The translations under genes were made by a program, and so were the position numbers. 39,577 nt of DNA. Source: Lentisphaerae bacterium GWF2_49_21 (GTDB taxonomy: Bacteria; Verrucomicrobiota; Lentisphaeria; Victivallales; GWF2-50-93). This document shows, piece by piece, positions 37,231 to 39,577 of this stretch (positions are counted from its first letter, which is position 1; each line of letters opens with the position of its first letter). Location: NCBI GenBank assembly GCA_001804805.1, contig MHBH01000021.1, positions 1-39,577 on the forward strand, given 5' to 3'. The notes under the pieces were generated by a model. The model ran no database searches, had not been told where the DNA came from, and saw nothing but the letters and a program-made list of their open reading frames with translations.

Positions 37231-38514
37231 TCATGCACTTAACTTGTCCAGCGGACTTTCCACCACCGCCAGCTTCTTCTGGGCAACATGAGTATAGATC
37301 ATGGTTGTCTCCAGGCTCTTATGCCCGAGTAGTTCCTGTATCACTTTGACATCCGTCCCGTTTTCAAGAAGATGTGTCGCATAGCTGTGCCTGAACGAAT
37401 GACTCGTTCCATGTTTGTTCACCTCGGCCTTCTCTATTGCAACCTTCACCATTTTCTGAACCGTATTGTCAAGGACGTGATGCCTCATCACCTTGCCTGA
37501 ACGTGGATCTACGGATGGCTTCGCCATCGGGAAAAACCATTGCCATCCAAACTGTTTAGATGCATTCGGATATTTCCGATCAAGCGCCTCCGGCATATGG
37601 ACTTCCCCATAGCCATGAGATATGTCCTCCTCATAAAGCCCCTTCAACCTCTCAAGATGCTTCTTCAAATCTTCCCTAAGCGACACAGGCATGGGCACCA
37701 TCCTGTCCTTGTCGCCTTTCGCCGCCCGAATATGCAATAGCCCTCTTTCCAGATCGATGTTGTTCACCCTGAGGCGCATGCATTCGTTCAGCCTCAGCCC
37801 GCATCCATACATCAGCTTGACCATCAGCGCCGCAGTCCCTTCAAGGTAAGATATGATCTTTGCGACTTCCGCAACACTGAACACCACAGGCAGCCTCAAC
37901 GGTTTCTTCGCCCTTACATTCCCACTCATGTCTCCCATCTCCCTCAAGAGGACATTCCTGTATAGAAATAAGATCGCACAGAACGACTGGTTCTGGGTCG
38001 AGGCCGAAACATGCATCTTAACAGCCAGATAAGCCAGATAATTCCTTACATCCTCGTCTGTTATCCCCAGCACGTTCTCCTTCCTGACATATTCAGCGAA
38101 TTTCCCGATGCACTCGAGGTATGTCCTCTCCGTGCTGTATGCATAATGCCTCAGCCGCAGGCACTCCTTGTACTTCAATATCGCCTCCTCCCAGGAAAGC
38201 CGGACGGGGGCCGGCTTTTCCACCGTACCCGTTGGAACCTGCGGCTTGAGATTCATCTTAAGGAAATTTGTCACATACATCCTGACAGCGTTTTCAGCCT
38301 GGCGCACCTGCCAGTCCTGATACCTGTTATCCTTGCTCATGGCATTAATGAAAGCGGCAATTGTGCGTGGATCTATGGCCTCCGACCTGTAATTAATGCC
38401 ATGAAGGTATTTGTCCGCCCAGTTGACGTAATATTTGGCCTTGTCCTTCTGCACCATCCTGCTGTCTATCAGGAACTTCTCAAACTCCATCAGTTTCGCG
38501 CAGTATGTGTCCAT
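37231..38514 (-). CDS. intI: Integron integrase (IntI) with extra N-terminal domain
   Basis: Tyrosine recombinase that inserts and excises gene cassettes at attI and attC. It is 427 residues, against about 340 for IntI1. The catalytic set is Arg241 (GCGLRLNE), a Lys at 266-269 (KGDKD), His372 and Arg375 (HSFRHSYATH), His398 (LLGH) and Tyr407 (TMIYTHV). Residues about 306-347 carry the insert that marks IntI and is absent from XerCD: MPEALDRKYPNA, QWFFP, DPRSGKVMRHH. The core-binding domain is about 105-195. Residues 1-90 form an additional SAM-like domain. AGGAAAGGCAAGG precedes ATG 38514. It is divergent from the cassette array, the usual arrangement. Confidence 0.95.
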   Translation of the reverse strand: MDTYCAKLMEFEKFLIDSRMVQKDKAKYYVNWADKYLHGINYRSEAIDPRTIAAFINAMSKDNRYQDWQVRQAENAVRMYVTNFLKMNLKPQVPTGTVEKPAPVRLSWEEAILKYKECLRLRHYAYSTERTYLECIGKFAEYVRKENVLGITDEDVRNYLAYLAVKMHVSASTQNQSFCAILFLYRNVLLREMGDMSGNVRAKKPLRLPVVFSVAEVAKIISYLEGTAALMVKLMYGCGLRLNECMRLRVNNIDLERGLLHIRAAKGDKDRMVPMPVSLREDLKKHLERLKGLYEEDISHGYGEVHMPEALDRKYPNASKQFGWQWFFPMAKPSVDPRSGKVMRHHVLDNTVQKMVKVAIEKAEVNKHGTSHSFRHSYATHLLENGTDVKVIQELLGHKSLETTMIYTHVAQKKLAVVESPLDKLSA

Positions 38515-38621
38515 ATTACCTTGCCTTTCCTGTTTTAGCGGTTATATTATAACTAAATATTTCAGTTATCATGAATTCCTGATAATACTGATAACTACCA
38601 GTAAAAGATGACTTTATCTAA

Positions 38622-38650
38622 TATATATTAGCATTATATTGCAATTTCAA
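38622..38650 (-). promoter_or_regulatory. Candidate intI promoter
   Basis: On the minus strand TTGAAA (38650-38645), a 17-base spacer and TATATA (38627-38622). The -10 lies in a 12-base palindrome TAATATATATTA (38619-38630). I see no match to the LexA boxes known from Proteobacteria, but the LexA site of this lineage may differ. Confidence 0.5.
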
Positions 38651-38738
38651 GCGATGTTTTGCATTTTTTCACAAATAATAACCTAGAGGAAACTCTGTTT
38701 TTCTTAAAAACAGGAATTCCTTATAAATACAGTTATGC
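38651..38738 (+). other. Probable attI site and leader of the cassette array
   Basis: The last bases before the first cassette. The core site GTTATGC (38732-38738) fits G|TT at the crossover, so the boundary is 38732/38733; it is fixed by complementarity with GCATAAC in the attC of cassette 1. A TATAAAT box (38722-38728) 6 bases upstream of the cassette ATG could serve as a -10 for a leaderless transcript. The left border of attI is not determinable by eye. Confidence 0.65.
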
Positions 38739-39032
38739 AAAAAATAAAATTAATAGAACTGGGAATAGGCTTACTGTTTTTAACGGTATTATATTTTGTG
38801 TTCTTAATGCCTATGACCACATCATTTATGAAAAATCCTAGTTATGAACTAAAATACAAGGAACAGGTCGAAGTAACAAGTCATACAGGGATCTGTGCAT
38901 TTTTTGCTGGCCTATCTATTGCTCTTATCATTTCTGGACTTATTGCAAAAGAAAATAAATAAACAGACAAGAAATAGAGGCATAACCAATGCGGCCTCAC
39001 CGAACCGGAGTACCGTTCGGTAGGCCTTGGCG
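38733..39032 (+). mobile_element. Integron gene cassette 1
   Basis: A 300-base cassette. It begins TTATGC and ends at the G of the attC core site. One open reading frame fills it. AT-rich compared with the genes to the left of the integrase. The borders follow from G|TT at both ends and from pairing of its first bases with R'' (GCATAAC) of its own attC. Confidence 0.85.
38735..38962 (+). CDS. Cassette 1: small two-helix membrane protein, unknown function
   Basis: A 75-residue protein I do not recognise. Two hydrophobic segments, about 8-27 (ELGIGLLFLTVLYFVFLMP) and 52-69 (GICAFFAGLSIALIISGL), are joined by a polar, lysine/glutamate-containing loop. Both ends are short and basic, suggesting a hairpin in the inner membrane. 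The ATG is at bases 3-5 of the cassette, inside the recombination core site, so no ribosome binding site travels with the cassette. Codon use is AT-rich, unlike the chromosomal genes, which fits acquired DNA. Confidence 0.75.
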   Translation: MQKIKLIELGIGLLFLTVLYFVFLMPMTTSFMKNPSYELKYKEQVEVTSHTGICAFFAGLSIALIISGLIAKENK

Positions 39033-39038
39033 TTCTAC
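38980..39038 (+). other. attC recombination site of cassette 1
   Basis: A 59-base attC. R'' is GCATAAC (38980-38986) and R' is GTTCTAC (39032-39038). The stem pairs GGCCT-c-ACCGAAC with GTTCGGT-AGGCC, leaving one extrahelical base, and the loop is CGGAGTACC. CCAA/TTGG adds an outer pair and leaves an unpaired spacer. These are the defining structural marks of attC. Confidence 0.9.
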
Positions 39039-39494
39039 ATGAAAATAATTAAACCCATAATTTTGTTTATATTCCTCATCTTGATTGCGGGGTGTGAAAA
39101 GAAAAAAATATCGCCTTCAGCGCTTACGGGAGAAAAACTTTTGACACAGCTTAAATCTGATTTGTCCAAAGCTAATATAATTCTCAATGGAGAGAGCATA
39201 AATATTGAAGTTAGATGGATGCCTCTTCCAGATGCACAAAATTGCCAGCGTCGGCTCGATATATATCTTGCCGATAATCGGATTGGCGCATTCTTAAATC
39301 CAATTCGGCTTGAACCTAAAGGGTGGCATCAAGAAATGACAAAAGAAATCAGAAAAAATGTTGATAGATATTTAAGAGATAATAGAATTGTCGAGACTCA
39401 AATACAAGTAGGGCAAGAGATTGAAAACTATTATGAATAGGTCGTAGAACTATCGGCCTCACCGAACGGAGTACCGTTCGGTAGGCCTAATACG
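39033..39494 (+). mobile_element. Integron gene cassette 2
   Basis: A 462-base cassette beginning TTCTAC and ending at the G of the second attC. Its first bases complement R'' GTAGAAC of its own attC exactly, as expected for a cassette that once circularised. It holds one open reading frame. Confidence 0.88.
39039..39440 (+). CDS. Cassette 2: lipoprotein of unknown function
   Basis: A 133-residue protein with a lipoprotein signal: basic start MKIIK, hydrophobic core and lipobox LIAGC (Cys19), then a lysine-rich stretch. The mature part is polar and probably alpha/beta (about 55-75 NIEVRWMPLPDAQ, 75-95 RRLDIYLADNRIGAF, C-terminal helix EIRKNVDRYLRDNR). I do not recognise the family. The ATG is base 7 of the cassette. 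An in-frame TTG at 39027 within the attC of cassette 1, behind GGTAGG, could be used instead and would add four residues. Confidence 0.78.
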   Translation: MKIIKPIILFIFLILIAGCEKKKISPSALTGEKLLTQLKSDLSKANIILNGESINIEVRWMPLPDAQNCQRRLDIYLADNRIGAFLNPIRLEPKGWHQEMTKEIRKNVDRYLRDNRIVETQIQVGQEIENYYE

Positions 39495-39500
39495 TTCTCT
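39444..39500 (+). other. attC recombination site of cassette 2
   Basis: A 57-base attC. R'' is GTAGAAC (39444-39450) and R' is GTTCTCT (39494-39500). The stem-loop is the same as in the first attC apart from one base fewer in the loop (GGAGTACC), with the same extrahelical C on this strand. The spacer bases differ, as usual between cassettes. Confidence 0.9.
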
Positions 39501-39521
39501 AAGAAAATATGAACGGATCAT

Positions 39522-39577
39522 ATGGATAAGACAAAAGAACACAAGACATCAAGAAATAGAAAGAGAACCATGCCCCT
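39522..39577 (+). CDS. Cassette 3: start of an open reading frame, cut by the window end
   Basis: The third cassette starts at 39495 (TTCTCT). An ATG at 39522 opens a frame that stays open for 18 codons to the window edge, with a lysine/arginine-rich start (MDKTKEHKTSRNRKRTM). ACGGA lies about 8 bases before it, so here a ribosome binding site may be present. An ATG at 39509 stops after six codons. The product cannot be judged. Confidence 0.4.
   Translation, partial: MDKTKEHKTSRNRKRTMP

Follow-up and report, generated by a model that had tools for sequence, protein, structure and literature searches.

The integron at the contig end

At the right-hand end of the DNA analysed here a recombinase gene points away from a short run of reading frames separated by hairpins, and the locus raises two questions, namely whether it is a true chromosomal integron and how its integrase relates to the cassettes scattered through the same genome. 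The window, by which we mean the whole stretch of 39,577 nucleotides, is the whole of C21, one of the 91 contigs that make up a 5.9-Mb draft genome, and its features are collected in Table 1.

The encoded protein matches the NCBIfam integron integrase model TIGR02249 at 395 bits (E 2.4e-118, curated cut-off 265) over residues 113-425, and its closest relative of solved structure is VchIntI4, 2a3v (E 2.9e-66). In the alignment the catalytic set R241/K266/H372/R375/H398/Y407 is complete and, like IntI1, the protein has the IntI-specific insert, which seven Xer proteins, among them E. coli XerC and XerD, lack; both features had been claimed in a preliminary description of this DNA, and the TIGR02249 score agrees with them. 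A tree of 20 proteins places the integrase with 12 other IntI and apart from Xer, so that the grouping with XerCD that would have spoken against that description did not appear; support for the branch between IntI and Xer is 88/96, the split being recovered in 87% of bootstrap trees. When the window IntI was used as a query against viral contigs no relative was found.

A home-made palindrome finder missed one attC site of the window, and we used a covariance model instead. This model, R1, was built from eight sites on three other contigs of the genome and on locus L016, with the window sites excluded, and it matches the window on the plus strand at the two attC intervals of Table 1 and nowhere else, at exactly the coordinates first predicted. 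A second model, R2, was made from the R1 matches with the window sites included; it finds 59 attC in the genome, its E-values being rough and the weakest matches possibly due to chance. Both window sites have the R''/R' and L''/L' stems, an extrahelical base and the conserved AAC...GTT, and their bottom strands in the excised form fold at -18.2 and -20.2, compared with shuffled means of -7.5 and -5.5. An Rfam search of the integron region gave zero matches, a result that says nothing on attC.

The three G/TT core sites expected from the preliminary description were found at 38732, 39032 and 39494, in an array divergent from the integrase. The start of a cassette complementing its own R'' is what integron biology predicts, and the two complete cassettes of the window do so at 7/7 positions, as had been proposed from the letters. 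This argument for the borders is valid because the complementarity holds across the genome: among 34 testable attC sites (those whose R'' contains AAC and for which 1 kb or more of upstream sequence was available), 23 are preceded, 150-1500 bp upstream, by a 7-mer exactly complementary to their own R'', whereas permuting R'' 2000 times gave a mean of 3.1 and a maximum of 9 exact borders. The third cassette leaves the right end of the window, which is also the contig end, and the array thus continues as anticipated. We considered joining the contig to C88, C80 or C17, but the cassette start found there resembles that of the window without being identical to it.

That the gene might instead encode an Xer-type or phage tyrosine recombinase, with hairpins that are chance repeats, draws what force it has from the broad superfamily to which all of these proteins belong. 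The TIGR02249 score above cut-off, the insert and the position in the tree argue against such a recombinase, as the match of both sites to an attC model trained elsewhere and the border permutation test do against chance hairpins; together they rule this reading out, and we give it practically no credence. We are highly confident that the window locus is a sedentary chromosomal integron. The word chromosomal, used already in the preliminary description, is supported by the genome assignment and by flanking reading frames that look housekeeping (an ABC-F ATPase, a peptidyl-prolyl isomerase and an epimerase, as read from the ORFs).

The integrase, both attC sites and the exact cassette borders can be read directly from the DNA, and the working of the locus would follow by analogy with the integron family, from which we infer the single-strand mechanism, the function of attI and the expression of the cassettes. 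On an excised cassette IntI would cut the folded attC in its bottom strand and join it at the G/TT of attI, so that new cassettes would enter at 38732 and older ones would be pushed to the right. A promoter-like match at 38521-38550, near attI, is weak and at chance level, and Pc-like matches in the window are no more frequent than chance. Both cassette ORFs begin a few bases past the border (38732-38740 and 39032-39042), which leaves no room inside the cassette for a ribosome-binding site; the ORFs of several cassettes elsewhere in the genome, at the platforms described below, likewise begin very early.

Table 1. Features of the integron at the right-hand end of the window (R1 and R2, attC covariance models)
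Feature	Position	Strand	Description	Basis
intI	37231..38514	-	Integron integrase, 427 aa; divergent from cassette array	TIGR02249, 2a3v, catalytic residues, IntI insert, tree
N-terminal extension of IntI	38230..38514	-	Residues 1-95; probable second SAM-like core-binding domain	PF13495, AF2 helices, Foldseek
attI region	38569..38732	+	Extent approximate; ends in TTATAAATACA before GTT; crossover expected after G 38732	Position between intI and first cassette
Gene cassette 1	38733..39032	+	300 bp	GTTATGC at 38732 exact complement of R'' GCATAAC at 38980
Cassette 1 ORF	38735..38962	+	75 aa, hydrophobic, no family	
attC 1	38980..39038	+		R1 24.5 bits, E 2.7e-4; R2 E 1.3e-8 (R2 includes attC 1); fold
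Gene cassette 2	39033..39494	+	462 bp	GTTCTAC at 39032 exact complement of R'' GTAGAAC at 39444
Cassette 2 ORF	39039..39440	+	133 aa, lipoprotein-like signal (ILIAGCE), no family	
attC 2	39444..39500	+		R1 22.4 bits, E 1.2e-3; R2 E 5.6e-7 (R2 includes attC 2)
Start of cassette 3	39495..39577	+	ORF from 39522 running off contig	GTTCTCT core; similar cassette start on contig C88

The lengthened integrase

Residues 1-110 of the window IntI fall outside the integron model TIGR02249, and several lines of evidence, each weak alone, agree on what they may form. PF13495, a SAM-like core-binding family, gives weak matches in five of eight relatives (the best, E 3.7e-5, in a relative), and in the AF2 model the extension helices 4-17, 23-39, 49-61 and 67-84 repeat those of the core-binding domain at 108-121, 126-143, 153-166 and 171-188. 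Predicted alone, the extension has a pLDDT of 62. With the extension as query, Foldseek returns 2a3v (VchIntI4) and XerA as its top matches with a probability of 0.99-1.00 but an E of just 0.015-0.10, and when compared profile to profile with the core-binding domain of the IntI set it scores weakly, at a probability of 58%. Since sequence, predicted fold and Foldseek point the same way, the extension is probably a second core-binding domain, one that might make additional contacts with DNA or protein, either at attI or within the synapse, and it offers a concrete target for studying how IntI recognises attI.

The profile has matches in 37 of the 289 genomes from the window's own phylum, chiefly in open frames of 400-570 aa. 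The intI copy on contig C52 is also N-terminally extended, its extension aligning poorly with that of the window IntI, and an integron integrase of Ca. Thiodictyon aligns with the window protein from residue 15 on. The extra length is not new, because an IntI clade of the Deltaproteobacteria (clade 15), longer by about 120 aa and termed a gene fusion, was noted by Nemergut et al. in 2008 (PMC2426708). Our integrase resembles that clade in being lengthened by about 110-120 aa; the passages of the paper that concern the clade name no domain.

Other integron loci in the genome and its relatives

The genome contains four intI loci, on C21, C52 and C78 and, truncated, on C35. An array of about 10 attC sites lies at the end of contig C17, and further arrays stand at the starts of C80, C88 and C77. 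Broken intI genes occur on C35 and in G004 (Lentisphaerae bacterium GWF2_50_93, a congener of this genome) and G006. Repeats of the type TTCTCGCACAAAGGCACGGAGGCAC interrupt intI at L014:2040-2510 (C35) and L027:4770-4822, they flank a GxxExxY-like ORF on C35, and similar ones adjoin attC on C76, C80, C88, C28 and C66. Two integrons of the genome have the same cassette end (L013:1-75 on C78 and L014:20-95 on C35), which suggests exchange between them. A cassette on C80 (L063:84-690) resembles a RelBE-type toxin-antitoxin pair, and a similar, antitoxin-like gene follows the first cassette of an attI-like repeat of family alpha (see below) on contig C10 of G004 (L183).

The 3.9-kb contig CABMIA010000005.1 (L016), titled uncultured archaeon LFW-280_1_1, encodes an IntI 73% identical to that of the window. 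We set aside an archaeal origin for this integrase; contamination of an archaeal MAG by Lentisphaerota DNA is the probable explanation from sequence comparison, because the contig is closely similar to C35 in its attI and intI 5' region and carries the same type of attC site. The case calls for caution in claims of archaeal integrons.

Dispersed attI-like platforms

The sequences to the left of isolated cassettes fall into families, and the two largest, alpha and beta, amount to 26 dispersed attI-like repeats in the genome that have no intact intI, most of them followed by a cassette. We refer to these repeats as platforms. Family alpha has 14 copies in the genome, six in G004 and two in G005, with no copy in other genera of the taxonomic family, and every alpha match stops at most two bases from the GTT where the cassette starts. 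A site of the form TTGA-N17/18-TATTTT, promoter-like in its sequence and directed at the cassette, lies about 116-160 bp before the GTT in 19 of 22 copies. An attC follows 16 of the 22, always in the same orientation, with eight exact borders and six of one mismatch; the remaining six have no detectable attC, three of these being shortened by contig ends. By eye, many alpha copies (e.g. L138, L143 and L153) have a short inverted repeat between the promoter-like site and the attI core that others lack, and its arms covary between copies, as in TAGGGT/ACCCTA, TATGGT/ACCATA and ATGCGG/CCGCAT, in an uncounted comparison.

Family beta has 12 copies in the genome, eight of which are followed by an attC (one partial and one weak), again all in the same orientation, and several borders have at least three mismatches or involve an attC that is partial. 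The attI of the intI gene on G004:C78 belongs to beta, as does that of an intI remnant on contig C61. Smaller sets also exist: copies of the C52 attI lie on C89 and at C5:178531, and the sequence at C17:1113 is similar to the C35 attI. The window attI has no close second copy in the taxonomic family, and none that is dispersed. In loci of about 3 kb the upstream side of the alpha and beta platforms gave no attC match, and the platforms matched no known RNA in Rfam.

The 66-residue intI remnant beside the beta attI on C61 brings up the reading that the platforms derive from complete integrons which decayed with the loss of intI and are now inactive, as ordinary CALIN-like remnants. CALINs have been described as arising in this way (PMC8618304), and the broken intI genes on C35 and in G004 and G006, together with the mismatches in some platform borders, fit such decay. 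Against this reading, apart from the C61 remnant and G004:C78 no intI similarity was found near platforms, and of the 26 alpha and beta loci of the genome 25 have flanks free of it (at least 1.5 kb per side, contig ends permitting). In alpha the promoter-like site and the attI core are conserved while the cassettes vary, exact borders are kept at many platforms, and one syntenic alpha locus (C26:47k in this genome, G004:C44 in the congener) has different cassettes in the two species between conserved flanks on both sides. We regard decay as possible but rather unlikely.

In a second reading single cassettes were inserted off-target at ordinary genomic GTT, as at attG-like secondary sites, and the common flanks are an unrelated repeat. 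IntI can indeed use secondary sites with little beyond GNT/GTTRRRY (PMC2426708, PMC10127599). The platform flanks are nevertheless multi-copy families of about 80-190 bp, all ending at the same GTT, and those of beta and of a further family, gamma, match the attI of intI-bearing loci; random secondary sites would have neither long flanks nor a promoter in common. Off-target insertion is accordingly an improbable source of the platforms.

A model for the use of the platforms

We propose, with a confidence slightly above even, that the genus runs a distributed integron, in which a few IntI serve dozens of dispersed attI-plus-promoter platforms, each a slot for the expression of one or two swappable cassettes, in place of one linear array that expresses only its first cassettes. 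IntI made elsewhere would insert cassettes into the alpha and beta platforms in trans, and the conserved alpha promoter would express the cassette of the platform. We infer this use in trans from the anatomy of the platforms and the one syntenic comparison. Because the window attI is without dispersed copies, it is through close relatives of the window IntI, the intI of C35 and G004:C78, that this integrase is linked to the platforms. Taken alone, the window integron, with its lengthened integrase, is of an ordinary sedentary kind.

The usual view of classical integrons is that expression is mainly of the cassettes beside attI, the rest being stored silently. If the model is true, many dispersed slots of attI plus promoter would allow the simultaneous expression of many captured genes, and capture would be separated from position in an array. 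The genome offers a direct test of IntI acting in trans on scattered sites in nature, as well as of how integrase-less cassette loci arise.

Comparison with known systems

In the scattered platforms a known system is arranged in a new way, and in the literature covered, which is limited and leaves most subscription papers outside, we found no earlier account of dispersed attI copies. The window locus resembles the sedentary chromosomal superintegrons of the Vibrio cholerae type in its divergent intI, the core GTT beside it, the tandem cassettes with folded attC, and cassettes that are mostly hypothetical and in some cases toxin-antitoxin-like, the latter elsewhere in this genome. It differs from them in the extra N-terminal domain of IntI, and its genome differs in having attC of several sequence types, four intI loci and many integrase-less attI-like platforms. 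With CALIN elements, which are attC clusters lacking an integrase, the platforms have in common cassettes with attC away from intI; unlike CALINs, a platform locus opens with an attI-like element that is repeated in the genome and that in alpha includes a conserved promoter-like site, and the number of cassettes is usually one or two. Finally, they are like attG or other secondary-site insertions in being single cassettes outside an array, joined at GTT, but their targets are repeat families, some of them homologous to intI-linked attI, and not arbitrary triplets.
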